From assembly GCF_000204035.1 (NCBI RefSeq), contig NZ_GL883086.1, positions 988,866 through 1,034,402 on the forward strand: a stretch of DNA of 45,537 bases, given 5' to 3'. A program made the translations under genes and the position numbers. This DNA is from Brevundimonas diminuta ATCC 11568. GTDB lineage: Bacteria > Pseudomonadota > Alphaproteobacteria > Caulobacterales > Caulobacteraceae. This document shows positions 271 through 45,419 of this stretch, one piece after another. The notes beneath the pieces are model-generated. The model saw only the letters and a program-made list of their open reading frames with translations. It was not told the origin of the DNA and made no database searches. How positions within the stretch are numbered: position 1 is the stretch's first letter; every line of letters starts with the position of its first letter.

Positions 271-3200
271 ATGTTCAAAGCCATCATCGAGGCGTCCGTC
301 CGCTTCCGCTGGTTCATCGTCCTGGCCACGACGCTGGTCGCCGCCTGGGGCCTGTTCCAGTTGACGAAGCTGCCGATCGACGCCGTGCCCGACATCACTA
401 ACCGCCAGGTGCAGATCAACACCGTGGCCCCCGCCCTGGCCCCCGAACAGATGGAGCGCCAGGTCACCTACCCGCTGGAAACGGCCATGGCCGGGATTCC
501 AGGCCTTCAGAGCACCCGCTCCCTCAGCCGCAACGGTTTCAGCCAGGTGACGGTCATCTTCACCGACGCCACCGACATCTACTTCGCCCGCCAGCAGGTG
601 GCCGAGCGGATGGCCCAGGCGCGCGAAAACCTGCCCGAAGGCGTCGAGCCCGGCCTGGCTCCGATCACCACGGGCCTGGGCGAAGTCCTGATGTGGACCG
701 TCGACTTCAAGCCCTTCGACGCCAAGGCGGCGCGAGCTGGAAAGCCTGGCTGGCAGCCCGATGGCGCCTATCTGACGCCCGAAGGCGATCGGCTGGCGTC
801 TCCCCAGGCGCAGGCGACCTATCTGCGCACTGTGCAGGACTGGATCATCGCGCCCCGGATGCGGACCGCGCGCGGTCTGGCGGGCGTCGACGTGAACGGC
901 GGCTATGTGAAGGAATACGCCGTCCGACCCGACCCGGCTCGCCTGGCGGGCTACGGTCTGGGCCTGGGCGACCTGATGCAGGCGCTGGAGCGCGCCAACA
1001 CCCAGGCGGGGGCCGGATACGTGCAGCGCGCGGGCGAAGCCCTGACCGTCCGCACCGACGCCTTGGCCCAAACCGTCGAGGATCTGGCTCAGGCGCCCGT
1101 GGCTAACCGCAACGGCCTGGTCGTGCGCGTCGCCGATGTGGCGACCGTGGAAATGGGCCAGGCGCCGCGCCTGGGCGGGGCCAGCCGCGACGGCCATGAA
1201 GCGGTCATCGGCACCGCCCTGATGCTGGCCGGCGAGAACAGCCGCACCGTGGCCCAGGCCGCCGCCGAACGGCTGGAAGAGATCGGCGCCAGCCTGCCGC
1301 CCGACATCGTGGCCGAGCCGGTGCTGAACCGCAGCGCCCTGGTCAACTCGACCATCAAGACGGTGGCCAAGAACCTGACCGAAGGCGCCCTGCTGGTCAT
1401 CGTCGTGCTGTTCCTGCTGCTGGGGAACATCCGCGCGGCGACGATCACGGCCCTGATGATCCCGATCAGCTTCCTGTTCGCGGTCATCGGCATGAACCGC
1501 TTCGGCATCAGCGGAAACCTGATGAGCCTAGGGGCGCTGGACTTCGGCCTGCTGGTCGACGGCGCCGTGGTGGTGGTCGAGAACACCCTGCTGATGCTCA
1601 GCCAGCGCCGGGCGGATCTGGGTCGGGCCCTCACCCGACACGAACGCCTGGACGTCGCCGCCGGCGCCGCGCGGCAGATGGTCAAGCCCGCCGCCTTCGG
1701 CCAGCTGATCATCCTGCTGGTCTTCACCCCCCTGCTGATGCTGGAAGGAGTCGAGGGCAAGACCTTCATCCCCATGGGCGCCACGGTCATGCTGGCCCTG
1801 GTCGGCGCCTTCATCTTCTCCTTCACCTTCGTCCCAGCCATGACGGCCCTGCTGGTGCGAGATCCCAAGACCGTCCACGTCGACGAGAACGGCGAGGCGG
1901 AAGAGCATGAGACCTTCCTGCTGCGCCACGCGCGCCGCTGGATCGAACCGGCCATCCGTTCCGCCGTGTCGCACCCCAAGACGGTGCTGGCGGCGGCGCT
2001 CGGCGCCCTCGTCGTCGGCGGGTTCGCCTTCACCACCCTGGGCCGAGAGTTCATCCCGACGCTGGACGAGGGCGATATCGCCATGCAGGCCCTGCGCGTG
2101 CCCTCGGCCTCGCTGGAGCAGTCCCTCGCCATGCAGATGGCGCTGGAGCGGGCCATCAAGGCCCAGCCCGAGGTGAAGACCATGTTCTCGCGCACCGGCA
2201 CGGCCGAGGCGGCGGTGGACCCCATGCCGCCGAACATCTCGGACGCCGTCATCGTGCTGAAGAAGCGCAAGGAATGGCCCGATCCGAAGCTGCCGAAGGA
2301 GGAGTTGATCGCCCGCATCGAAAAGGCCTCCGCCGCCCAGTTGGGCAACAGCTTCGAGTTCAGCCAGCCGATCGAACTGCGCTTCAACGAGCTGATCTCC
2401 GGGGTCCGCACCGATCTGGCGGTCATGGTCTATGGAGACGACTTCACCCAGCTTCAGGCCACGGCGGATCAGGTCGCCAACGCCCTGCGCGACACGCCCG
2501 GCTCGGCCGACGTGCGGGTGGAGCAGGCGTCGGGCCTGCCGACCCTGACGGTCAGCGTCGACCGCTTCGCCGCCGCCAACTACGGCCTGTCGGCGGCCGA
2601 CGTGTCCGAAGCCGTCTCGGCGGCCATCGGCGGCGCCGAGTCTGGGCAAATCTTCGAGGGCGACCGCCGCTTCGACGTCGTGGTCCGTCTCGACGACGCC
2701 CAAAGGAACGACCCCGCCGCCCTGGCTGCCCTGCCGGTCACAACCGCGACCGGGGTGACGGTGCCCCTGTCCTCGGTCGCCCGCATCCAAGTGGCGGAAG
2801 GTCAGAACCAGATCAGCCGCAACAACGGCAGCCGCCGCATGGTGGTTCAGGCCAATGTGCGCGGCCGCGATCTGGGCGGCTTCGTCGGCGACGCCCAGGC
2901 GAGAGTTCAGCAACAGGTTCAAATGCCGGCCGGCTATTCCCTGACCTGGGGCGGCCAGTTCGAGAACCTGAAGCGGGCCGAGCAGCGCTTGGGCCTGGTC
3001 ATCCCCGTGGTCTTCGTCCTGATCGGCATCCTGCTGTTCATGGCGTTGGGATCGTTCGCGGAGGCCGGGCTGGTGTTCGCCTGCGTGCCGCTGGCCCTCG
3101 TCGGCGGGGCGCTGGCCCTGCTGCTGAGGGGGATGCCCTTCTCCGTCTCGGCGGCGGTCGGCTTCATCGCCGTGTCCGGCGTCGCGACCCTGAACGGCCT

Positions 3201-23475: not shown

Positions 23476-24122
23476 GAGTCCGTTTGAGAATGCTCAAGGA
23501 TGGACGATCCTGCGCAGCATGAGGCTTCCGAGGGCGATGTGGATCATGGCTTCGGAGACGTCGAGGCGCTGTTCGTAGTCTCGGACGAGGCGCTTCCACC
23601 GGGTCATCCAGCCGAAGGTTCGCTCGACGACCCATCGCCGGGGGAGGACCTTGAAGCGGGGCTCTTTATCGGTGCGCCGCACGATCTCTAGGACGAAGTC
23701 GCGATAGGCGGCGGCGTCCATGAGGCGGGTGCGGTCATAGGCACCGTCGGCGAAAAGGTGCTTGAGCCAGGGCCAACGCTTTCGGATGGCTGCGACGATA
23801 GTCTGGGCACCGGCGCTGTCGGAGATGTCTGCGGTGGTGAGATTCACCATCAGCAGCCTGCCCGACTGCGATATGCCGTTTGCGGCCAACGACTTTCTTG
23901 CCCGCATCGAAGCCGCGCTTTTCCGCCGCGGGCGCCTTGATTGACTGGCTGTCGACGACCGCTGCGGTCGGACTTTGCTCCCGGTTCTCGCGCTCGCGGT
24001 CAAGCATCAGCGCGACATCGTGGATCGTGCGAAACAGCAGTCGACGTACGAACCGCCGGAACCACCAGTAGACTGTTTGCCAGGGTGGGAAGTCGTTCGG
24101 CAGCATCCGCCAGTGGCGTCAG
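23475..24122 (-). mobile_element. IS5-family insertion sequence remnant
   Basis: The segment contains the catalytic part of an IS5-family (IS427-like) transposase on the minus strand, plus a short downstream end. The left boundary is estimated from the sequence after the transposase stop (gagtccgtttgagaatgctc around 23476-23495), which looks like an IS terminus. The other boundary near 24115-24122 is where transposase similarity stops, because the N-terminal 70 or so codons and the matching terminal repeat are missing. I could not find a paired inverted repeat or target duplication, so the element is probably immobile. Confidence 0.7.
23494..24106 (-). pseudogene. IS5-family transposase, truncated and frameshifted
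   Basis: From 24106 the minus strand reads MLPNDFPPWQTVYWWFRRFV, then [32 protein letters not shown], in one frame. After about 23864 the protein continues in another frame: [53 protein letters not shown] and [14 protein letters not shown] to the stop at 23494. Family members usually read HIAVDTDGRLLMVN at the join, so about eight bases appear to be lost there. In-frame reading upstream hits a stop immediately before RHWRMLP, where the N-terminal domain should be. The DDE-type catalytic core is thus split and the enzyme inactive. Confidence 0.8.
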
Positions 24123-25744: not shown

Positions 25745-27934
25745 TCAGAAGCGCCGCTGCAACGTTAACCGCACTGCGCGACCGATGGGGTCTTGTGCAT
25801 CCCGGCCATAGCCAGGCGCTGACGCACCATCACCTAGATGTGCTTGAGGCCTTTCATCGAACAGATTTGAAACCTCCAGGCTCACTTGCAGGCCCCCAGC
25901 CCTTCGGCGCATCGCTTCAGCATCAACGGCGGATGCCGCGCGAGTAGAGGCCATCTGAAAACTCAGCTTCAAATCCATTGATGCGAATGGCTTCAACAGC
26001 AAGTCCGTCGGCCCATCGGCGCCACTCAACCGTCGCGTGCGATAACCGTCTTGCCATCGCGCTGAAGCGTTTAGCGCCCAACGCCCGCGTCGTGCATCGA
26101 TCAGCAAACGCGCGTCCTGCCTCGACACTCCGCCCCCGTCTCCCTTCAGTCGATTCAGCTCAGGGAGTCCGTTCGCCAGCGACAACGTGTTGCGCAAACG
26201 ATAGCTATGACTTAGCGACACCCGCAGAATCGTCGCTTCGTCGCCAACAGCCCCAGAGGGGCGCGGCAGATTGAAGTTCAAACTGCTGGTCAGGCCTTCC
26301 GTCAGGTTGGCGCCGAAGTTAAGCGGGCGATAATCAACAGAGATCAGCCGCCCATCCAGATCTCGACGGAATCGCTCTGGAAAGGCCGCTTCGACATCCT
26401 CTGTCAGGTCTGGCAGGGAGCCGACCCCGTTCGTCGTCCTGTCGCGTTGATAGCCCAGGTTGGCGGATAGACTCCACCGCGTGAACGGTCCCAGCGACGT
26501 CGTCAGCGAAAGACGCTCCGAGCGCGGCTGTCGCAAGTCGGGGTTTCCTCCCATGATCGGTACGATCTCCACCGCTTGGCCGTTGCGGAAGTCGAACACT
26601 ACTCGCGGCGTGTCATGATACAGGGGCTCGGACCTCAGATTGTTCGAAATGCCGTCGTTCGCAGCGGACCAGAGGCCATTAAGGCGCACCTTCTGACGCG
26701 GAACCCAGGTCAAGGCCGCGCTCATCTCATCGCCGGATCCTGCGCCCGTGTCCCGAACGCCGCCGCCTACCGTCGCCAGCAGATCGCCTAAGCCCCGCAA
26801 CACGCCTTCACGCGCGCCCGCCTTGGCCAGCGGAACGGCCAAAGAGCCCCTCGCCTCCCGAGTCTGAAAGCGGCTTGTTGCGCGGCCCTGTTCGCGCTCG
26901 ACCGTCGAGCGACTATCCATGAAATTGCCGTTGAAATTGGCGACCAGGGGACCGGCGGGCAGTTCCAGCAACGTCCGCCCGACGGATCCGCTCAGGCCCA
27001 TCATGCGGTTTTCACCACGTGTATCGCCAAAGCCGCTCTCGCGCGCTCGCGACGCCTGGCCAGTCGCATTCACCTGGACCCGCCACCCCTTCGCCTCGCC
27101 GCTGAGTCCGAAAGCTCCGCCCAGGCTGTTATTTCGCCTCAGACTCGCAACGATCTCGTCGCCGAAGCGAACGCGCGACGAGCTTTCCCTAGCCTGACCG
27201 TTCAAACTGACCACAGACGACCATTCGCCGAGCGGACGCGTCGCAGTCAGGTTCACCGCAGCCAGATCGACGCCGGGGCGCAGGGTGACCGCGTCACCCG
27301 CAAGCCTCTCGCCTTCCCCTCGATCGCGTTCATCGGCCCGCAGAGCGGTGTCGCGCAAAACGCGCGCGCCCATCTGCAAGGTCCGTTCGCCATTAATCGA
27401 CGAGCGGCGCAGATCAATTGCCAGCGACGACATTCCGCTCTGTGTCGGCCGCTGTCCGGATACCTGACCGTCATGGCTTCGAAACTGCCGCTGCAAGACC
27501 AGGTTCACCACCCTTTGCCCCGGCGCGCCTCCATAAAGGGCCCCCGCCTCGGCAGGCAGCACCTCGGCCCGAATAAGGGCGTCCGGTGGGAAACCGGTGA
27601 AGGCGCCGGGATTGGCGACGCGCTTGCCGTTGATGACAACCATAGGCGCTTCGCCGACGCCATATGCTTGACCCAGCCGCTGCAGAACCTCGCTGATGTC
27701 CCAAGCGCCCAAGGCGTCGATCTCTACGCCGTCCAGCTCGACCTCGGGCGGGACCAAGGCTGCGCCGCGGCGACCGCGAACTTCCACGTCATCGACCCTG
27801 ACCGGTTCTTCTAGAGTTTGGCGCGCGGCTTGATCGGCTGCAGCTCTCGCTACGGTGGCGCGGCCCTGCTCCGTCTGCGCGACCTCCGTCTGCCCCACGA
27901 CGGCTAGACTGACCAAGGGCAGCCACAACAGCAT
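25745..27934 (-). CDS. TonB-dependent receptor-like outer-membrane protein
   Basis: A 729-residue protein with an N-terminal signal-like hydrophobic stretch (MLLWLPLVSLAVVG). A plug domain follows (about 45-155; DVEVRGRRG, EVLQRLGQAYGV, MVVINGKRV, IRAEVLPAEAGALYGGAPGQRVVNLVL) and a beta-barrel ends in the aromatic LTLQRRF. The plug is short and lacks the usual TSxRGxG segment, placing it in the divergent receptor class of Caulobacterales and sphingomonads rather than among siderophore receptors. The ligand is unknown. The signal peptide lacks positive charges at its start, so the true start may be upstream of 27934 or the annotated ATG may be misplaced. Confidence 0.85.
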   Translation of the reverse strand: MLLWLPLVSLAVVGQTEVAQTEQGRATVARAAADQAARQTLEEPVRVDDVEVRGRRGAALVPPEVELDGVEIDALGAWDISEVLQRLGQAYGVGEAPMVVINGKRVANPGAFTGFPPDALIRAEVLPAEAGALYGGAPGQRVVNLVLQRQFRSHDGQVSGQRPTQSGMSSLAIDLRRSSINGERTLQMGARVLRDTALRADERDRGEGERLAGDAVTLRPGVDLAAVNLTATRPLGEWSSVVSLNGQARESSSRVRFGDEIVASLRRNNSLGGAFGLSGEAKGWRVQVNATGQASRARESGFGDTRGENRMMGLSGSVGRTLLELPAGPLVANFNGNFMDSRSTVEREQGRATSRFQTREARGSLAVPLAKAGAREGVLRGLGDLLATVGGGVRDTGAGSGDEMSAALTWVPRQKVRLNGLWSAANDGISNNLRSEPLYHDTPRVVFDFRNGQAVEIVPIMGGNPDLRQPRSERLSLTTSLGPFTRWSLSANLGYQRDRTTNGVGSLPDLTEDVEAAFPERFRRDLDGRLISVDYRPLNFGANLTEGLTSSLNFNLPRPSGAVGDEATILRVSLSHSYRLRNTLSLANGLPELNRLKGDGGGVSRQDARLLIDARRGRWALNASARWQDGYRTRRLSGADGPTDLLLKPFASMDLKLSFQMASTRAASAVDAEAMRRRAGGLQVSLEVSNLFDERPQAHLGDGASAPGYGRDAQDPIGRAVRLTLQRRF

Positions 27935-28117: not shown

Positions 28118-28594
28118 TCAGGAAATTGTCAGGCCCGGCGAGCTCGTCAGCGTGCCCGTGATTTTGCACGGGTTCGGCGAACCAGGAATAGTGGAAGTAG
28201 GGAAATACACGCTACTGGTTCCATTGTTCCAGTTCGTCGTGATGACGCCATTGCAGCTGCCCAGGATCGAGCTGGCGCCGATGTTGGTGATGGTGATCGA
28301 ACCACCTCCGTTGGGCGTGATCGTCCAGGGGAAGCCCGACGGCGAGACCAGCAGGCCGCACTGCCAGTCGCCTGGGCTGAAGCTGCCGCCGGTGATAGTG
28401 GCCGAACTACCGTCAGCAGCCACAGTCCCGTTCAGTGACACGTTACAGTTGATGGTCGTCGACTGCTCAAGGGTCAAGGCGCCTGACAAGACAAAAGACG
28501 TACCGGCTGGACTGATCGATTGCGCCATGGCCGGAGCGGCGAAGCCCGCGATGGCCAGAACGGCGGCTGAAGCAATAGAAGCAGCTTTAAACAT
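28118..28594 (-). CDS. PraB-like secreted protein
   Basis: A 158-residue exported protein. The start at 28594 is preferred because gggaggag precedes it; the frame opens earlier (28618) without support. The signal peptide (MFKAASIASAAVLAIAGFAA) is cleaved near AMAQ. The mature part is rich in Ser, Thr and Gly and beta-strand-like (GALTLEQSTTINCNVSL, TGGSFSPGDWQCG, WTITPNGGGSITITNIGASS, SCNGVITTNWNN) with paired cysteines. The pattern matches the PraB/alkane-oxidation-activator family, small secreted proteins whose molecular role is unclear. It lies between two outer-membrane receptors and has its own terminator. Confidence 0.72.
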   Translation of the reverse strand: MFKAASIASAAVLAIAGFAAPAMAQSISPAGTSFVLSGALTLEQSTTINCNVSLNGTVAADGSSATITGGSFSPGDWQCGLLVSPSGFPWTITPNGGGSITITNIGASSILGSCNGVITTNWNNGTSSVYFPTSTIPGSPNPCKITGTLTSSPGLTIS

Positions 28595-28727
28595 GTCATC
28601 TCCTCCCAAATATTTCACCAGTTAATGGTGACGAAGACACAAGACAATTGAAACAGATGTAAGTCAAATTATAAATATGATTAATTTTATATTATTCACT
28701 TTAAATTCTATAAATCACAACAACAAG

Positions 28728-28755
28728 CGCCGCCACCTTATTAAAGATGGCGGCG
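28728..28755 (-). terminator. Hairpin terminator after the TonB receptor
   Basis: Arms cgccgcca (28728-28735) and tggcggcg (28748-28755) pair perfectly around an AT-rich loop, 13 bases past the receptor stop. On the minus strand the stem is followed by cttgttgttgtg, which is T-rich though interrupted. The surrounding 28620-28770 stretch is notably AT-rich and holds no gene. Confidence 0.7.
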
Positions 28756-28767
28756 TAGGATTTAAAC

Positions 28768-31734
28768 TTAGAATCTCTTACTTACGCTTACAGCTATCAA
28801 TCTAGGATCAAGCGTGAAAACATTCGTCGTCAAACCAGTATCATCACTATTCGTGAAGGCATCCGTGATTGGCGCGTCGTCAAACAGATTCTTGACGTAC
28901 GCTTGGAAAACCAAGCCGCTCGACATATTTTCCAGCGTAACGTTGACATTAACATTATCCCATGCCTTCAGGCGATCATATTGCGTATTATAGACGCGAG
29001 AATAACTGCTTCCCTGATAGTAGTAATCGCCGCGCAGCGTCAGATCCCAATCTCCAAGGAAGAATGTGTACTGGGCGCCGATGTTGGCGGTGATGTTCGG
29101 CGCATTGGGCAGCTCATTGCCGCTGAGATCCGCCTCAAAACCACGCCCCCCGTTCGGCGCATCCTTGAATGGATCGTAGGTGATGCCGAACAGACGCCAG
29201 AAGGGAACGCTGGAGGTGTAGTTGGGATCAAACGTCCCCGTGCGAAGCGAACCGCCGCACAGCGCCTGAAGCGCGAGCGTCTTCGTAATCTCTGGAAACG
29301 CCGTACCTAAGATTTTTTCGACATGCTTGGTCGGCGCGATGCAGTTCGACGGCACCTGCAGCCAGGGCCGCAACACCATCCAGTCAGGATTGCCCTGGGT
29401 TCGATTCATAACGTCGATGGAACCTTCACCATCGCCGATCTTGGTGTCCAGATAGCCGATGTTCGCATCCAAGCGCAGGTTAGGCGTCGGCTGGAACACC
29501 GTTTCCAGCTCCAATCCCATCATGCGCGCATCAAAGTTCTCGTTCAGCGAGATACGATCGACGATCTGCGACACCTGATAGTCGGTGTAGTCGTAATAGA
29601 AGGCGGTCAGATTCAACCGCACTTTTCCATCATGGAAGGAGTTCTTCGTTCCGATCTCAAAAGCGTTGACGTATTCCGGCTCAAACAACTCGGCCAACGG
29701 CTGATACTGGATGACCGACGGATTGATGTCGACGCGAGGCGGGTTAGCGCCGCCGCCCTTATAGCCCCGAGCGTAGGAGGCGTAGATCAGGGTGTCGTCC
29801 GTAAAGGGCGTCACCGGCTTCCAGTCCAGCACCAGTCGCCCGGTCAGGGCGCCCCACTGCTGCTTGACGTCCGGCAGCGCCGGATAGCCACGGCTGACAT
29901 AACCGCCCGACGACGGTCCCGGATTGCCGCGATCCGCACCCAGAAGGAGTTGGCTCGGATAGGGCGTGCTGATCTTGCGATCATCGGTGTAACGCAACCC
30001 CGCCGTCAGCCGCAGGTCAGACGTCAGATCCCAATACCCCTCGCCGAAGACCGCCCAGGAACGTGTATGAACAACATTCTTGCTACGGAAGTAGTTGTGC
30101 CCGTCGCCAGCCAACTGACTGATAGGCGTCGGATCGACATAGACACATTCTTTTGGAGTTTGAGGCGTACAAGGCTGCGTAACACGCCCCTGATTTACAG
30201 GAGCACCTACAACATTATTGTAATAATATTCAGCCAAGAAAGTAAAAACGTTATTAAAAACGTAGTAATCATCATTGGATTTAAAATCCAAATAATTAGC
30301 ACCGATATTAAAATTAAATCTGCCATCAAGATTTGATTGAAGTCTTAGCTCTTGAGTCCATTGGCGATTGTCAGACTTACTCAAGTCTGCAGAAATCATC
30401 CTATTGGATGTACCTAGTTGTGGATCTGTATAGTAACCACCAGGCAAAGGAGAGTTAACTATAGGCTGCCCATTAATATCAAAAAGATTGTCAGTGCTGT
30501 TGAATATAGGATTTGAAACAAATCTATTATAGTCTTGAGTTGAATAGTAACCATCCTTCGAGTACGCGGTTTGAGATATCAGCTTCAGTTTATCGCTGAA
30601 GTCATACTCTACATTAAATTGCGAAACATCGTTCTTGACCCGAAAGATTGGGTCATAACTGGTCGCTACTTCTCGCAAGTTCCGTGACTGGGTCAAACCT
30701 GCATAAGGGTCCGTTCCAAGCGGCACGCCCACCACCAGCCTTCTCGAAGCATCATAGCCAAATGACGTGGCGGCGAGAAAAATATGGGCGAACGCGCCGC
30801 CGTTCGGCGCGCCATAGGCCGCGTCATCATAGAGCGAGCCGGGCAGACATCCCTGGCTCAGACGGTTCCGGATCAGGTCGGAAGTAATATTGACCGCACC
30901 CACGCGCGTCGGCCCCGGATCCCGCGTACACAACTGCTTGCCCGTGCGGGAACGCTGATCGTCTTCCTCGAAATGCTCCCAGATAAAGCTGGTGCGGAAG
31001 CGGTCCGTCGGTTCCCAAAGGGCTGAAAAGCGCGTCGACCACATGTCGCGGTCGTTCACCTGGGTGTCGTTGAAGCTGTTGTAGTCGAACCCGTCGCGCT
31101 TGGTCGCCGATCCGGCTAGACGAACGGCGAAGGTGTCGGTGATCGGTACATTGACCATGGCCGACATGCGCCGGGTGTCATAGTTGCCCGCCTCGCCCTT
31201 GACGAAACCCTCGAAGTCAAAGCCCGGCAGGTTTGGGATCATGTTGACCACGCCGCCGGTAGCGTTGCGACCATACAGCGTACCTTGTGGCCCGCGCAGC
31301 ACCTCGACGCGGTTCACATCCAGATACTCCTGCTCGAACAGACGGTTTCGGATCAACGGCGTGTTGTTGAAACTGACCGCCACGGCCGGGTCGCTACTGG
31401 CCGAAATCGCCTTAGTCCCGACCCCGCGGATCGAGAAGTTGTACATGGAGAAGTTGGCCTTGGAGAAACTGACGTTCGGGATCGCCCGCATCAATTCCGA
31501 CCCGCCCTCGATCTTCATGGCGTCAAGGTTTTCCGCCGACAGCGCCGTCACGGCGATCGGCACGTCCTGAATCGATTGTTCACGCTTCTGGGCCGTAACA
31601 ATGATGTCGCCGACGGTGGTTGCTTCCTGTGACGGCGCGACGTCCTGAGCCAGAGCGGGGCCGGCCGCTACAGCAAGAACAACGGCAGACGCGGTGACAG
31701 CCAGACGCGCGCGATTACAGGCCGCTGAAGCCAT
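28768..31734 (-). CDS. TonB-dependent receptor
   Basis: A 988-residue receptor. I use the ATG at 31734, which follows a ggggaga ribosome site; the ATG at 31755 lies before that site. Signal peptide to about residue 30 (AGPALAQ), TonB box VGDIIVTAQKREQSIQDVPIAV, plug with SIRGVGTK and VEVLRGPQGTLYGRNATGGVVN, long barrel, final VSVSKRF. This is the FecA/CirA-like receptor type that sphingomonads and Caulobacterales use for varied organic compounds. An internal patch of about 500 bases (30180-30690) is far more AT-rich than the rest. It is divergent from the KstD-like dehydrogenase. Confidence 0.95.
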   Translation of the reverse strand: MASAACNRARLAVTASAVVLAVAAGPALAQDVAPSQEATTVGDIIVTAQKREQSIQDVPIAVTALSAENLDAMKIEGGSELMRAIPNVSFSKANFSMYNFSIRGVGTKAISASSDPAVAVSFNNTPLIRNRLFEQEYLDVNRVEVLRGPQGTLYGRNATGGVVNMIPNLPGFDFEGFVKGEAGNYDTRRMSAMVNVPITDTFAVRLAGSATKRDGFDYNSFNDTQVNDRDMWSTRFSALWEPTDRFRTSFIWEHFEEDDQRSRTGKQLCTRDPGPTRVGAVNITSDLIRNRLSQGCLPGSLYDDAAYGAPNGGAFAHIFLAATSFGYDASRRLVVGVPLGTDPYAGLTQSRNLREVATSYDPIFRVKNDVSQFNVEYDFSDKLKLISQTAYSKDGYYSTQDYNRFVSNPIFNSTDNLFDINGQPIVNSPLPGGYYTDPQLGTSNRMISADLSKSDNRQWTQELRLQSNLDGRFNFNIGANYLDFKSNDDYYVFNNVFTFLAEYYYNNVVGAPVNQGRVTQPCTPQTPKECVYVDPTPISQLAGDGHNYFRSKNVVHTRSWAVFGEGYWDLTSDLRLTAGLRYTDDRKISTPYPSQLLLGADRGNPGPSSGGYVSRGYPALPDVKQQWGALTGRLVLDWKPVTPFTDDTLIYASYARGYKGGGANPPRVDINPSVIQYQPLAELFEPEYVNAFEIGTKNSFHDGKVRLNLTAFYYDYTDYQVSQIVDRISLNENFDARMMGLELETVFQPTPNLRLDANIGYLDTKIGDGEGSIDVMNRTQGNPDWMVLRPWLQVPSNCIAPTKHVEKILGTAFPEITKTLALQALCGGSLRTGTFDPNYTSSVPFWRLFGITYDPFKDAPNGGRGFEADLSGNELPNAPNITANIGAQYTFFLGDWDLTLRGDYYYQGSSYSRVYNTQYDRLKAWDNVNVNVTLENMSSGLVFQAYVKNLFDDAPITDAFTNSDDTGLTTNVFTLDPRLIAVSVSKRF

Positions 31735-32043
31735 GAAACTTATCTCCCCAGACATCGAGCGCCCTTCCCCAGGCGCGCCGACACGTTTCCCCCGTCCCGA
31801 TTTATCATCTCACGGTTGGACGGTGCGACCGCAGGACTAAGGCCACACGATCCATCTATTCACTGATCTGTCAATACACTACTTACATCATTGTTCGATG
31901 ACGTAGCGGAAGCTTTTGCAGCTGCGTCGCTTATCTTGCGCAATGCAGCGCAGACCCAGGTATCACATTGTTCAAACTATTTTCCTTTCGCTAACATTAT
32001 TGTTAGTAATGATGAGAGCGTATTATTTTTGGGGTGCAGGCCG
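31735..32043. promoter_or_regulatory. Divergent promoter region with two dyads
   Basis: These 309 bases separate the TonB receptor (minus) from the flavin dehydrogenase (plus). Two symmetric elements stand out: TACATCAT-N6-ATGACGTA at 31884-31905 (one mismatch in eight pairs) and CTAACA-TTAT-TGTTAG at 31991-32006 (perfect). The part near 32000 is AT-rich and includes tattattttt just before the ggggtgcagg ribosome site. An in-frame extension of the dehydrogenase to 31891 exists but adds no conserved sequence. Confidence 0.6.
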
Positions 32044-33720
32044 ATGAACACGGACATCGTTATAGTCGGCGGAGGATTGGCAGGGCTGGTCGCCGCACAC
32101 GAGTTGACCCGCTCGGGCAAGTACGTCGCCCTGGTTGATCAAGAGAATGCCGCCAACCTAGGCGGTCAGGCATTCTGGTCCTTCGGCGGCCTGTTCCTGG
32201 TGAACTCGCCCGAGCAACGGCGGCTGGGCGTGCGTGACAGCTTCGACCTGGCGTGGCGCGACTGGCAAGGCAGCGCCGGCTGGGATCGCCTGGGCGCCCC
32301 CTTGGCTGAAGATGAGTGGGCTGTGCAATGGGGCCGCGCATACGTGGAATTCGCAGCCGGAGAAAAACGCAATTGGCTCAGTCGACACGACATCAAACTG
32401 ACGCCCATGGTCGGCTGGGCCGAACGCGGCGCGGGCAAGGCGCTCGGTCACGGCAATTCCGTTCCGCGCTTCCATGTCGCCTGGGGCACGGGAACCGGCG
32501 TATCCGAACCGTTCGCCTGTCGTGTGCGAGAGGCGGCCAAGTCTGGTCGACTGATCTTCTATCATCGCCATCGCGTCGATCATTTGCTGGTCGAGGCCGG
32601 GCGCGTGAAGGGGGTGTCCGGCGTGACTCTGGCGCCCGACGACGCGCCGCGAGGCGCCCCCTCCAATCGCCAGGTCATCGGCGACTTCACCCTCAAAGCC
32701 GACGCCGTGATCCTGGCGACCGGCGGCATCGGCGGCAACCATGAGATGGTCCGGCGCTATTGGCCCGAGCGGCTGGGCGCGCCGCCGGCACGCATGATCA
32801 CCGGCGTGCCCGCCCATGTGGATGGGCGGATGCTGGACATCGCGGCCAGGGCTGGCGCGCGACTCGTGAACCGGGACCGCATGTGGCACTATGTGGAGGG
32901 CGTGCGGAACTGGGCGCCGATCTGGCCCGACCATGCGATCCGCATCCTGCCGGGACCGTCGCCTCTGTGGTTCGACGCCCTGGGGCGGCGCCTGCCCTTC
33001 CCGGCCTTGCCCGGCTACGACACCATCGCCACGCTGAAATATCTGCGGACCACTCCTGATCTGGCCGAGCATGACCACTCCTGGTTCATCGTCACCGAGA
33101 CCATGATGGCCAAGGAGTTCGCCCTGTCGGGCTCGGAGCAGAACCAGGACATCACCAACCGCAACCTTCTGGGCGTCCTGCGTTCACGCCTAGGCAAAGC
33201 CGCGCCGCGAGAAGTCGCCGCCTTCCGCGACAAGGGCGCCGACTTCGTGGTCGCAGACGACCTGGATACGCTGGTCGGCAGGATGAACGGCCTGACCGAC
33301 AGACCGCTGCTGGACGCCGCCCTGATCCGCGCCCAGATCGAGGATCGAGACGCCCAGATGGCCAATCCCTACGCCAAGGACGCGCAAGTTCAGGGCATTT
33401 ACAACAGCCGGCGGTATCGCGGCGATCGTTGGGCCCGCACGTCTGCGCCGCACAGGGTGCTTGACCCGGCGGCCGGGCCGTTGATCGGCGTCAAGCTGCA
33501 CGTCCTGACGCGCAAGTCGCTGGGCGGACTGCAGACAGATCTGTCCAGCCGCGTGCTGACGCCGGACGGAACGCCGCTGGAAGGACTCTACGCCGCAGGC
33601 GAAGCTGCGGGCTTCGGCGGCGGCGGATTGCATGGTTACAATGCGCTGGAGGGCACCTTCCTGGGCGGCTGCATATTCTCGGGACGGGCGGCGGGGCGCG
33701 CGCTGGCGGGCCAGGCCTAA
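32044..33720 (+). CDS. FAD-binding dehydrogenase, 3-ketosteroid dehydrogenase-like
   Basis: A 558-residue flavoprotein. I start it at 32044 because the FAD-binding motif begins at once (DIVIVGGGLAGLVAAHELTRSG, glycines 9-14), as in homologues. The NLGGQAFWSFGGLF and ADAVILATGGIGGNHEMVRRYWP segments and the C-terminal GLYAAGEAAGFGGGGLHGYNALEGTFLGGCIFSGRAAG follow the fumarate reductase/KstD flavoprotein fold. This length and N-terminus fit the FAD-binding dehydrogenase subgroup related to KstD, whose members act on cyclic ketones or are uncharacterised. A BASS-family transporter follows 45 bases later. A steroid-like or terpenoid substrate is an inference. Confidence 0.9.
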   Translation: MNTDIVIVGGGLAGLVAAHELTRSGKYVALVDQENAANLGGQAFWSFGGLFLVNSPEQRRLGVRDSFDLAWRDWQGSAGWDRLGAPLAEDEWAVQWGRAYVEFAAGEKRNWLSRHDIKLTPMVGWAERGAGKALGHGNSVPRFHVAWGTGTGVSEPFACRVREAAKSGRLIFYHRHRVDHLLVEAGRVKGVSGVTLAPDDAPRGAPSNRQVIGDFTLKADAVILATGGIGGNHEMVRRYWPERLGAPPARMITGVPAHVDGRMLDIAARAGARLVNRDRMWHYVEGVRNWAPIWPDHAIRILPGPSPLWFDALGRRLPFPALPGYDTIATLKYLRTTPDLAEHDHSWFIVTETMMAKEFALSGSEQNQDITNRNLLGVLRSRLGKAAPREVAAFRDKGADFVVADDLDTLVGRMNGLTDRPLLDAALIRAQIEDRDAQMANPYAKDAQVQGIYNSRRYRGDRWARTSAPHRVLDPAAGPLIGVKLHVLTRKSLGGLQTDLSSRVLTPDGTPLEGLYAAGEAAGFGGGGLHGYNALEGTFLGGCIFSGRAAGRALAGQA

Positions 33721-33765
33721 GAGGGACAATCGCGCCGCCATCTGGCGCACGGGGAGAAACGACGC

Positions 33766-34629
33766 ATGGATTCCGCAATGGCCACCATCGGCCTGCCCGT
33801 CGCGCTGGGCATCATCATGTTCGGCCTGGGCCTCGGACTGACGCCCGCAGACTTCGCCCGCGTGGCCCAGAGGCCCAAGGCGGCCGGCGTGGCCCTGGCC
33901 TGCCAGTTGCTGTTGCTTCCGGTCATTTGCTTCGGGCTGGTGCTGCTGTTCCGCCTGCCGCCCGTTCTGGCGGTCGGCATGATGCTGCTGGCCGCCTCCC
34001 CAGGCGGAACGACGGCCAATCTCTACAGCCACTTGTTCCGAGGTGATGTGGCGCTGAACATCAGCCTGACAGCCATCAACTCGATCATCGCCGTCGTCAC
34101 CCTGCCCGTCGTGGTCAATCTGGCGATCGCCTTCTTCCAGCCCGGCGACCTGCATGTCGGCTTGCAATTCAAGAAGACCGTAGAGGTCTTCATGATCGTT
34201 CTGGCGCCTGTGGCGTTGGGGATGCTGGTGCGCGGATGGCGCCCTGCCTTCGCAGCCGCCATGGACCGGCCGGTGCGGATCGCCTCCATCCTGATCCTAG
34301 TGCTGGTCATCGTCGGCGCCGCCGCCTCCAGCTTCGATGTGTTGATGAGCCAGATCGGCAACCTAGCGGGCATCACCGTGGCCTTCTGCCTCCTCAGCCT
34401 GGGCGTCGGCTACGGCGTGCCGCGCCTGCTCAGGATCGAGCGCCCGCAAGCCGTCGCCAGCGCCTTCGAAGTCGGGCTGCATAACGCCACCCTGGCCATC
34501 GTCATCGCCCAATCCGTGCTGAACAGTTCTGAGATGACGCTGCCCGGCGCCGTTTATGGCGTACTGATGTTCCCGCTGGCGGCGGCCTTCGGCTTCCTGA
34601 TCACGCGCGGGAAGACCGAACCCGCCTAA
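33766..34629 (+). CDS. Bile acid:sodium symporter (BASS)-family transporter
   Basis: A 287-residue membrane protein with about nine to ten helices. Family motifs include LAASPGGTTANLYSHLFRGDVALNISLTAI (sodium-site region) and the C-terminal EVGLHNATLAIVIAQ. Members import bile acids, steroid conjugates, pantothenate-related acids and other organic anions with sodium. The ATG follows ggggag closely. It is likely cotranscribed with the flavin dehydrogenase. Its stop overlaps the tail of the convergent fadD gene by four bases (34626-34629). Confidence 0.92.
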   Translation: MDSAMATIGLPVALGIIMFGLGLGLTPADFARVAQRPKAAGVALACQLLLLPVICFGLVLLFRLPPVLAVGMMLLAASPGGTTANLYSHLFRGDVALNISLTAINSIIAVVTLPVVVNLAIAFFQPGDLHVGLQFKKTVEVFMIVLAPVALGMLVRGWRPAFAAAMDRPVRIASILILVLVIVGAAASSFDVLMSQIGNLAGITVAFCLLSLGVGYGVPRLLRIERPQAVASAFEVGLHNATLAIVIAQSVLNSSEMTLPGAVYGVLMFPLAAAFGFLITRGKTEPA

Positions 34630-36356
34630 TCCCGCAGTTCACGGCGCAGCACCTTGCCGACATTGGTCTTGGGCAAAGGCTCGTCGCGGAAGATGATGAT
34701 GCGAGGGACTTTATAGGCCGTCAGCCGCTCGCGGCAGTGGGCGACGATCATCGCCTCCGTCAGTTCGGGCGAGCGCGGCACGATGACGACCTTGATCCGC
34801 TCGCCCTGAACCGGATCAGGAACGCCGACAGCGGCTACCTCGTCCACCAGGGGGTGGGCCGCCACCACATCCTCGACCTCGTTCGGATAGACGTTGAAGC
34901 CGGACACCAGGATCATGTCTTTGATCCGGTCGACTAGCCGCACCCGGCCGTCCGCCTGCATAACGCCCACGTCGCCTGTCGCCAGCCAGCCATCAAGCGT
35001 CAGAACCTTGGCCGTCTCCTCCGGTCGGTTCCAATAGCCGCGCATGACCTGGGGGCCGCGCACGTATAGTTCGCCCGGCTCGTCGATCCCGCACCAACTT
35101 CCGTCGTCGCGACGCATCCGCACCTCGGTAGAAGGCACAGGAAGCCCGACCGTGCCGTCGAAGCCCATCGTCTCCGGCCGCTCGATATCCACATAGCCGA
35201 TGCAGACCACCGGCGAGGTTTCGGTCAGGCCATAGCCTTCGATCAGCGGCGCGCCGGTCACGCTCTGCCAAGCCTCGGCCACCGACGCCTGAGTCGCCAT
35301 GCCCCCGGCCACGGTCAGGCGCAGATCCGAGAAGTCGCGATCACGGAAGGCCTCATTCTTGAGCAACCCGGCGAACAGGGTGTTGAGGCCGGTAAAGGCC
35401 GCGAACCGCTCCTTCCTCAGCACCCACTCTACCCGCTTCGCATCGCGCGGATTAGCGATCAGGATGTTGCGTCCGCCCACGCCCACGAACATCAGCAGGT
35501 TCGCCGTCAGGGAGAAGATATGATAGAGCGGCAGCATGGTGACATTGCCCACCACCTGATCCTCAGGGATCTGGGCCATGATCCAGGCGCGCCCCTGCAG
35601 AACATTGGCGATGATGTTCCGATGGGTCAGCATGGCTCCTTTGGCCACGCCAGACGTACCCCCCGTATATTGCAGGAAGGCGAGGTCTTCCGCCTTCGTC
35701 TTGACCGGCTTCAGCGACAGTCGCCGCGCCCGACGCATCACGGCGGGCCAGCGTTCAGCCTGCGGGACGCACCACTTAGGCACCAGCTTTTCGACATGGC
35801 GCAGCAGGGCGGTGATCGCCGTCCCCTTCACCGGCCCCATCATGTCGCCCATGGCCGTGACGACGACATGGCGGATGTCCGTCCCCACGATCGCCTGTTC
35901 AAGAGTGGCGGCGAACATTTCCATCACGACGATGGCGACCGCGCCGCTGTCCTTGAGCTGATGCTGCAGCTCGCGCGGCGTGTAGAGCGGGTTGACGTTG
36001 ACCACCACCGCCCCGGCGAACAGCACGCCGAACAGCGCCACCGGATACTGCAGGCAATTCGGCATCATCAACGCCACCCGGTCGCCGGGCCGCACGCCCT
36101 GGGCCTGCAGCCAGGCGGCGAACGCCCGCGCTTCCGACAGCGCCCGGCCATAGGTCACGCCCGAGCCCATGCTGACGAATCCGACGCGTTCCGCATATTT
36201 GCGAGCGTCCGCCGCGAACAGGTCGCCGACCGAAGCCCATTGCACCAATTCGTTGTCGATCGTCGCAGGCACGTCGGGACGATAGGCGCGCGTCCAGAAG
36301 CGCTCGGCCCACAGGCGATCGGCGTCGGTCTGCGTCACATCCAGCGCCACGCTCAT
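34626..36356 (-). CDS. fadD: Long-chain fatty acid-CoA ligase
   Basis: A 576-residue ANL-superfamily enzyme that activates fatty acids or similar acids to CoA thioesters through an acyl-AMP. The start at 36356 overlaps the thiolase stop by four bases (ATGA); the longer frame to 36593 is antisense-like read-through. Signatures: P-loop YTGGTSGVAKGAMLTHRN (230-247), GYGLTETSP, the linker region TGDVGVMQADGRVRLVDRIKDMI, and the catalytic lysine K568 in TNVGKVLRREL. Last gene of the five-gene operon, it would supply the substrate for the acyl-CoA dehydrogenase at the front. Confidence 0.95.
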   Translation of the reverse strand: MSVALDVTQTDADRLWAERFWTRAYRPDVPATIDNELVQWASVGDLFAADARKYAERVGFVSMGSGVTYGRALSEARAFAAWLQAQGVRPGDRVALMMPNCLQYPVALFGVLFAGAVVVNVNPLYTPRELQHQLKDSGAVAIVVMEMFAATLEQAIVGTDIRHVVVTAMGDMMGPVKGTAITALLRHVEKLVPKWCVPQAERWPAVMRRARRLSLKPVKTKAEDLAFLQYTGGTSGVAKGAMLTHRNIIANVLQGRAWIMAQIPEDQVVGNVTMLPLYHIFSLTANLLMFVGVGGRNILIANPRDAKRVEWVLRKERFAAFTGLNTLFAGLLKNEAFRDRDFSDLRLTVAGGMATQASVAEAWQSVTGAPLIEGYGLTETSPVVCIGYVDIERPETMGFDGTVGLPVPSTEVRMRRDDGSWCGIDEPGELYVRGPQVMRGYWNRPEETAKVLTLDGWLATGDVGVMQADGRVRLVDRIKDMILVSGFNVYPNEVEDVVAAHPLVDEVAAVGVPDPVQGERIKVVIVPRSPELTEAMIVAHCRERLTAYKVPRIIIFRDEPLPKTNVGKVLRRELRD

Positions 36357-43923: not shown

Positions 43924-44694
43924 TCATGCGCCTGCATCAGGAAACCAGGTCGTCTGGCGCGCAGCGCCTGACAACTGGCGTGTGACCCGCCACCCCTCTC
44001 CTGCTCGCTCGACCCGATCAGGGGGCGCGCCAGGGCCCGGATAGCGGAATATCCGCCCCTCTACCTCGATATCGCTCGCGCGATCTCCCACAGCAGGAAC
44101 GACAACGCTCCAACGACCATGCGAATCCGCCACGCCCTGGGCCGTTCCTCCTCCGGCTTGGACCGCGACTTTTCGGCCAGGATCAGCGCGGCCCGAGGCA
44201 ATCAGACCGCGACCGTCGCCGTCCAAAGCGTCCAAGGTCGGTCCTGGCGTCAGGCGCAGACTGGCGCCGCCGTCGGTCAACAAGGCGGCCAGACGCCCGC
44301 CTTCCCCGACCACCAGCAGACGTTGCGGTCCCGGCGTCGTCGCCTGCCCGATCTGGATCTCAGGCGTCAGAATCTGCCCGACCGCCGCAGGACCGACATG
44401 CAGCTCGAATCGCCCCTGCGCATCCGCGGCGGCGGCCACGGCAGAACCATCAGCGCCGCTGAGGATCACGCGCGCGCCAGGCGCGGCTTCTCCTCGCACC
44501 AAGACGCCTCCAGGCGTCTGGGACAACACGCTGGTGATGCGCGGCGTCGCCATCCAGTCGCCATCCTGGACTTCGGCCGTATCGGCTTCCGCATCGCTCT
44601 TGGGAGCGCCGCACGCCGAAAGCGCCGTCGCCAATCCCAGCGCCAGGCTCAAACTCAGTCGCAGGCCGATCCTTCGTTCCATCCTGTCCCGCAT
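43924..44694 (-). CDS. Lipoprotein with Ig-like/carboxypeptidase-regulatory-type repeats
   Basis: A 256-residue protein with a lipoprotein signal (MERRIGLRLSLSLALGLATALSAC): the lipobox LSAC puts the lipidated cysteine at residue 28, or 24 if the ATG at residue 5 is used. The mature part holds two beta-rich repeats of the form VRGEAAPGARVILSGADG...AAADAQGRFELHV and IASGRADPGRKVAVQAGGG...GVADSHGRWSVVV. These are carboxypeptidase-regulatory or Big-type domains. It should sit in the inner or outer membrane facing the periplasm. Specific function unknown. Confidence 0.82.
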   Translation of the reverse strand: MRDRMERRIGLRLSLSLALGLATALSACGAPKSDAEADTAEVQDGDWMATPRITSVLSQTPGGVLVRGEAAPGARVILSGADGSAVAAAADAQGRFELHVGPAAVGQILTPEIQIGQATTPGPQRLLVVGEGGRLAALLTDGGASLRLTPGPTLDALDGDGRGLIASGRADPGRKVAVQAGGGTAQGVADSHGRWSVVVPAVGDRASDIEVEGRIFRYPGPGAPPDRVERAGEGWRVTRQLSGAARQTTWFPDAGA

Positions 44695-44813
44695 CGCTAT
44701 AAGGCTGTGTGTCCAGATAGACGGCTCCGTTCGCTTGGCCCAGCCCCTTCAACCCGGCCCGCTTGGCGCTCCCCGCCTGTCTTCACTTGCCGCCCGAGGT
44801 CACCAAAGGTTCC

Positions 44814-45419
44814 ATGTCCCTGCCCTCCGTCAACATCGCCCCGTTCGAGGGCCAATCCGTCTGCCTGTTCTGCGGCTCTTCCGACGGGACCGACCCGCGC
44901 TACATCCAGGCGGCCGCGGAGTTCGGCAAGGCTGTAGCCGAGGCGGGTTGGCGCTTCGTCTATGGCGGCGGCGGCGTGGGCCTGATGGGCGCCTCGGCCC
45001 GCGCAGCGCATGACGCCGGCGGCCGCGTCGTCGGCATCATGCCCGCCTTCCTGCGCAGCCGCGAGCGCCTGTTCGACGATGTGGAGACGATCGTCGTCAC
45101 CTCCATGCACGAGCGCAAGCAGCTGATGTACGACGAATCCGACGTCTTCGTCGTCGCGCCCGGCGGCGTCGGCACGCTGGAAGAGGTCGTGGAACTGCTG
45201 TCATGGAAGCGGCTGGACCTGCACGCCAAACCCGTCATCTTCCTGAATCTGGACGGTTTCTGGGACGGCTTCTTCACCCTGATCGAACATACGGTCGAAA
45301 AGGGCATGACGCCGGCCAGCTTCCTAGAGGCCTATGTCAGCGTCGATTCGGTCGAGGGCGCGATCGAAGCCATGAAATCAGCTCAGGACACGCCCTACTT
45401 GCAACATGATCGTCGGTAA
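44814..45419 (+). CDS. LOG-family (TIGR00730) nucleotide 5'-monophosphate phosphoribohydrolase
   Basis: A 201-residue Rossmann-fold enzyme. I use the ATG at 44814 (aaagg just upstream) rather than 44763. Signatures are complete: GGGGVGLMG near residue 51, MHERK (98-102) and PGGVGTLEE (116-124), the family's nucleotide-binding and catalytic motifs. LOG-family members remove ribose 5-phosphate from cytokinin ribotides and from AMP-type nucleotides; in bacteria the physiological role is often nucleotide salvage. Confidence 0.93.
   Translation: MSLPSVNIAPFEGQSVCLFCGSSDGTDPRYIQAAAEFGKAVAEAGWRFVYGGGGVGLMGASARAAHDAGGRVVGIMPAFLRSRERLFDDVETIVVTSMHERKQLMYDESDVFVVAPGGVGTLEEVVELLSWKRLDLHAKPVIFLNLDGFWDGFFTLIEHTVEKGMTPASFLEAYVSVDSVEGAIEAMKSAQDTPYLQHDRR

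Follow-up and report, generated by a model that had tools for sequence, protein, structure and literature searches.

TbpA is a TonB-dependent receptor, and PorA and FetA of Neisseria display variable surface loops in otherwise conserved barrels. Unlike the single exposed loops of PorA and FetA that are used for typing, the locus reported here involves four barrel strands, and its changes are not concentrated in loops. In Neisseria, tbpA and tbpB are described as recombination-hot outer-membrane receptor genes with between-species hybrids (PMC4866539). The present gene is like them in being an outer-membrane receptor gene remodelled by recombination; it differs in its circumstances, as the Neisseria genes belong to a host-antigen setting in naturally transformable pathogens, whereas here there is an environmental bacterium, one event, and no immune pressure. 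A further comparison is offered by the Pseudomonas pyoverdine receptor FpvA, a TonB-dependent receptor whose gene diverges strongly and, according to a second report, bears signs of positive selection (PMC11366639). That receptor travels with siderophore genes; in contrast, only an internal segment has been replaced in our case, and purifying selection dominates.

Among publications combining TonB-dependent receptors, Brevundimonas, and recombination, judged by their titles and the openings of their abstracts, we found no exchange of this sort, and PMC7142613 makes no mention of recombination, horizontal gene transfer, GC content, or mosaic genes. We regard the mosaic segment described below as real, clean, and of a known kind: it is an ordinary but unusually clean case of surface-receptor remodelling. 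It is of interest as a clean and datable case in which part of a TonB-dependent receptor gene was exchanged in an organism that is not among the well-studied pathogens.

An AT-rich segment in a TonB-dependent receptor gene

The gene lies on the reverse strand of a 45,537-nucleotide stretch of Brevundimonas diminuta ATCC 11568 DNA, which was analysed whole and is referred to here as the window. At 28768–31755, a frame of 995 codons is open from end to end with no stops. On the strength of this frame, of its Pfam matches, and of the predicted fold, it was identified as the gene for a TonB-dependent receptor of 995 amino acids with a plug and a beta barrel. The Pfam family Plug matched residues 62–169 with 55 bits (cut-off 23.9), and the best stretch for TonB_dep_Rec_b-barrel was 401–793, with 132.5 bits (cut-off 27). 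The AlphaFold2 model of the protein had a mean pLDDT of 86.6. When this model was compared with solved TonB-dependent receptors, FyuA was the best match (Z = 39.1, rmsd 2.3 over 618 residues), tied with FoxA (Z = 38.8) and with FhuA close (Z = 38.0); the top Foldseek match was likewise FyuA (E = 3.5e-38). Among the 25 NCBIfam models listed, no substrate model reached its cut-off. The barrel family itself gave 53 matches in one 3.37-Mb genome (G000), a large receptor repertoire.

The preliminary description of this DNA had pointed to an AT-rich patch in the barrel-coding part of the gene, in a frame that stayed open and between flanks of typical high GC. Both the patch and the open frame were borne out. 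The lowest-GC 450-base stretch of the whole window is 30211–30660 (GC 0.347; z = −5.73 relative to the window’s own 450-base stretches), and it can be assigned to the barrel part from the positions of the two Pfam matches. The description of the flanks holds in part: GC was 0.35–0.40 in 300-base windows over 30050–30649 and 0.57–0.66 in the windows immediately outside, but the stretch 28576–29025 is AT-rich as well (GC 0.387). This second stretch takes in the last receptor codons, the intergenic gap, and the start of a PraA/PraB-like open reading frame (ORF). It is mostly 80–92% identical in Brevundimonas sp. 357 and therefore lies outside the swap discussed below.

Sliding-window GC and codon analysis, which had been proposed as a check, showed that the dip is real and not due to amino acids. 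GC3 in codons 322–540 was 0.374, as opposed to the 0.767 expected from the amino acids and from the codon use of 19 other ORFs of the window (z = −14.5); amino-acid content was thereby ruled out as the cause of the low GC. The minimum 170-codon GC3 of the receptor (0.318) was lower than that of all 2000 within-gene synonymous shuffles, the lowest of which was 0.494. The best GC3 segment by likelihood is an AT-rich core at codons 401–537 (30145–30555, reverse strand). We also considered whether the receptors of this genome have a generally low GC3. Among 50 barrel-family frames of the same genome (two of the 49 others contain masked stretches), the lowest 140-codon GC3 was found in this gene (0.27), with the next at 0.49; the median minimum over the other 49 was 0.81, which rules this cause out.

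Divergence from Brevundimonas sp. 357 and the mosaic gene

The nearest relative of the receptor is that of Brevundimonas sp. 357 (93% amino-acid identity). As had been suggested in the preliminary description, the barrels of close relatives were compared for a mosaic breakpoint, and two sharp junctions emerged against 357. Between the two genes, 60-base bins were 92–100% identical at gene nucleotides 181–960 and 1621–3000 and 51–77% identical in the bins covering 961–1620; identity inside the patch was about 70%. A two-breakpoint scan against 357, the one relative sufficiently close for a sharp breakpoint test, delimited a recombinant tract at 30148–30777 (reverse strand; gene nucleotides 979–1608, codons about 327–536), with a divergence of 0.316 inside and 0.051 outside. 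The log-likelihood gain was 147.6; the maximum over 1000 permutations was 13.9. The tract is longer than the AT-rich core. On the reverse strand, 70 bases that are identical in the window and 357 end at the first junction (30776–30845, gene nucleotides 911–980), and a further 38 identical bases start at the second (30110–30147, gene nucleotides 1609–1646).

The synonymous-codon difference between the window and 357 was 0.56–0.60 in the patch and 0.10 in each flank. For 11 neighbouring ORFs of the same two genomes, it ranged from 0.17 to 0.53, with a median of 0.36. Because the value for the patch (0.58) exceeds this background median and that for the flanks falls short of it, the genome background is younger than the patch and older than the remainder of the receptor. 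Protein-level selection cannot produce such a contrast at synonymous sites. Among 296 close receptor pairs, the synonymous excess of this patch (0.60 vs. 0.10) was the largest, the median excess being 0.07. Other 600-base stretches of the aligned neighbourhood also had less than 76% identity to 357, some of them below the patch (down to 0.603 at 44248–44847); thus, low identity alone is not unusual, but the contrast within one gene is. The gene is otherwise near-identical to that of 357, the boundaries of the divergent segment are sharp, and synonymous divergence differs between segment and flanks: these are the marks of a mosaic. The earlier claim that a segment of the barrel had been replaced by recombination is well supported, in that saturated synonymous divergence is confined to the tract and ends sharply on both sides.

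We consider it quite probable that the body of the gene shares a very recent ancestor with the 357 receptor and that approximately 630 bases in its middle were replaced by homologous recombination with an allele of an unsampled relative. The incoming DNA would have been the matching segment of another receptor allele from that relative, and it would have been joined by homologous recombination at the two near-identical stretches of 70 and 38 bases. Such a swap would exchange four barrel strands along with the loops between and beside them. The incoming segment would already have been GC-poor, giving rise to the AT-rich patch; that is, the AT-richness presumably came along with the segment. Presumably the cell took up the DNA and exchanged it by ordinary homologous recombination. 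An event of this kind, spanning two conserved stretches, would account for the boundaries and the saturated synonymous sites as well as for a frame that stayed open.

That both junctions fall at stretches identical between the alleles would also be expected if the assembly were a chimera of two strains joined at conserved junctions. We regard this as highly improbable: the frame is open with no indel, the genome assembly is 95.65% complete and 0.18% contaminated in 8 contigs, the contig in question measures 2.63 Mb, and the 70- and 38-base identical stretches fall short of the read lengths commonly used in assembly.

The pattern of substitution bears on another explanation, namely a rewriting of the segment through localised hypermutation or by a diversity-generating retroelement. 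Change of the retroelement type is limited to the adenines of a short variable repeat. The change seen here is local and lies in the exposed part of a surface protein, and 54 of the 82 window-specific changes run from GC to AT, as such a process might produce. However, transitions and transversions are about equally frequent inside the tract (101 and 97; 51 and 16 in the flanks), all substitution types occur with none exclusive, and the change is mostly synonymous (pN 0.149, pS 0.79). As all bases change over approximately 630 bases, the tract was rejected as the target of a diversity-generating retroelement, and rewriting of the segment by either means seems to us scarcely credible.

Replacement in the window’s lineage, as opposed to that of 357, is suggested by comparison with B. 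bullata. A related genome, G001, has a receptor sequence equal to that of the named B. bullata locus L034, and the window’s genome belongs to this genus. The 357 gene has nucleotide identities to B. bullata of 79% in the patch and 75 and 79% in the flanks; the window’s gene has the same flank values, but only 69% in the patch. Between 357 and B. bullata, the patch had a dS of 1.00 and the flanks had 0.92 and 0.91, whereas the dS between the window’s patch and B. bullata was saturated. Patch and flanks are in agreement in 357 but not in the window; the 357 gene is therefore coherent and the window’s gene is the mosaic one. Judged by these alignments, the recipient looks like the window’s lineage. 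Trees were calculated from 37 of the 71 receptor sequences of at least 45% identity (nine identical sequences were collapsed, and three fragments were left out). The protein tree of the flanks joined the window and 357 with a support of 100 on branches of 0.006 and 0.004, whereas that of the patch placed 357 with B. bullata (support 99) and the window alone on a branch of 0.344. An AU test on the patch did not reject the window and 357 as sisters (p = 0.164), and the mosaic case rests on divergence, not on topology.

The order of events could also have been the reverse: the patch would be the resident allele of the window’s lineage, and both sides would have been homogenised with the 357 lineage, in a single exchange or in two, leaving the divergent middle untouched. 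It speaks for this order that the receptor gene moved recently between lineages, since the receptor sides differ by 0.10 at synonymous codons while the median of the 11 neighbouring ORFs is 0.36, and since identity between the two genomes is 85% for FadE and 96% for the receptor sides. However, with the patch at 0.56 and thus above the background median, a resident allele would have to predate the split of the two species, and we think the reverse order unlikely. The gene is a mosaic under either order of exchange.

A shared synonymous dip and the search for a donor

In the preliminary description, finding the patch in every orthologue, with unchanged composition, was taken to point to old constraint instead of exchange. 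The patch proved not to be the same in all, but a shallower form of it is widespread. At the same block, GC3 was below that of the flanks, with amino-acid effects removed, in 49 of 55 other relatives (mean −0.117), a set whose members are not independent, as several genomes contributed more than one copy and three sequences (L120, L164, and L172) come from one genome of the same genus as the Caulobacter set. The window’s dip of −0.385 ranked first of 56. In 11 Caulobacter sequences, the dip was weak or absent (−0.08 to +0.03). Over 21 structural segments, of which neighbouring ones are not independent, the dip was correlated with low conservation (Spearman 0.56, p = 0.009).

Given the frequency of the dip among relatives, the composition belongs in part to the general character of this receptor group. 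AT-richness by itself is no mark of import, nor was it what established the exchange. Since most relatives have a milder patch, an AT-rich one says little, taken alone, about recent transfer. The shared dip is at the same time a testable oddity: composition within a gene differs by region across many GC-rich species.

These observations are what one would expect if there had been no exchange and the region of strands 6–9, fast-evolving and under weak codon constraint, simply drifted to AT in place; moreover, the patch is less conserved than the flanks in most close receptor pairs. Drift in place may explain the shared background dip. It cannot, however, account for a tract that is saturated at synonymous sites and that begins and ends abruptly between sides at 0.10, and it fits poorly with the window’s first rank, with the Caulobacter values, and with the median dip of 0.06 across the genome’s other 49 receptors. 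As the sole cause, it is refuted by the two sharp junctions; we deem an origin of the segment without exchange very unlikely. A different and, in our estimation, doubtful idea is that the block of strands 6–9 is a standing exchange unit, whose alleles circulate as a separate pool among Brevundimonas and allied genera. Synonymous AT-richness would be maintained in this pool, with the remainder of the gene following the composition of the host. If this were true, the dip in the relatives would be what repeated earlier swaps have left behind, with the window as the freshest case.

Under replacement by an allele of an unsampled relative, the donor may simply be a relative whose dip is stronger, and AT-richness of the organism as a whole is not required. 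The patch protein was searched in 390 genomes of the family, 180 of which had a match, and the best besides itself had 79% amino-acid identity. Among 398 genomes of the order, 24 had a match at E = 1e-60 or better, and nothing was closer than 79%; among 385 genomes of the class, the sole match was the window’s own genome. On plasmids, there was no match to the patch protein, and in viral contigs, six stretches fit the search pattern and none was confirmed. No donor emerged from these collections. An identified donor is needed for full proof, but not for membership among mosaic genes.

We also asked how often the patch was more alike than the flanks in other pairs of receptors. This was so in 7 of 2485 pairs, always by a small margin, and there is thus no second clear transfer. 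Separately, two receptor copies of Glycocaulis profundi (L046 and L047) had identities of 89% (5′ flank), 65% (patch), and 77% (3′ flank); from this alignment, the pair may perhaps represent another partial exchange.

The exchanged block in the protein and the surrounding genes

In the model of the receptor, the tract comprises the second part of loop 3, strands 6 and 7, loop 4, strands 8 and 9, and most of loop 5; the outside loops were named provisionally, on the basis that long and short connections alternate. Of 211 aligned residues in the tract, 46 differ from those of 357; loops account for 28 of these (among 125 residues) and strands for 18 (among 86). The densest change was found in the first part of loop 5 (13 of 36 residues). 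A focus of change on the loops received no support from these counts.

It had been surmised earlier that the exchange altered loops for the recognition of a ligand or of phage. Changes are equally dense in loops and strands, and altered recognition of a ligand, a colicin, or phage is therefore unproven. The segment also keeps 78–79% amino-acid identity to relatives, and pN is far smaller than pS, a pattern in which purifying selection is dominant. The segment is an alternative allele, functional and conserved; its specificity may have changed, but there is no indication of this. The case marks a block of the barrel as swappable with the frame and the fold kept.

A scan of genome contigs with the whole protein yielded 60 receptor loci, in which the surroundings of the gene could be compared. 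Adjoining the receptor on the same strand is a small PraA/PraB-like ORF (28118–28618), which scored below the cut-offs of both models (for NCBIfam PraB, E = 1e-17 and 64 bits, with a cut-off of 120); similar sequence was present in 28 of the 60 loci. The divergent neighbour on the forward strand (31891–33720) encodes an FAD-binding dehydrogenase, which scored above the cut-off of the NCBIfam equivalog PRK12834 and was found in 27 of the 60. Further neighbours include genes for a transporter of the bile-acid-symporter family, an acyl-CoA ligase, a thiolase, and MaoC-like, SDR, and FadE-type proteins. If one may guess from such company, it hints at a hydrophobic acid or alkane-like substrate.

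The neighbourhood also bears on the movement of entire receptors. In Brevundimonas sp. UBA4609, 18 of 20 bins of 150 bases on the side of the dehydrogenase, transporter, and ligase (about 32655–35655) were at least 90% identical to the window, whereas identity across the receptor was 52–85%. Near-identical neighbours around a strongly different receptor at the same place suggest replacement of the whole receptor. FadE of UBA4609 is 86% identical to that of the window, similar to the value for 357. As 357 and the window are 96% identical in the receptor flanks, entire receptors also seem to move between these species.

Three features on the far side of the PraA/PraB-like ORF may be recorded. 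A 729-residue ORF at 25745–27934 had no Pfam match at E = 0.001 and, at E = 1e-6, was near the receptor in 24 of the 60 loci. Brevundimonas sp. 357 ceases to be collinear with the window at about 25848. At 23494–24003, there is an ORF resembling an IS5-type transposase, which scored just under the cut-off of its model.
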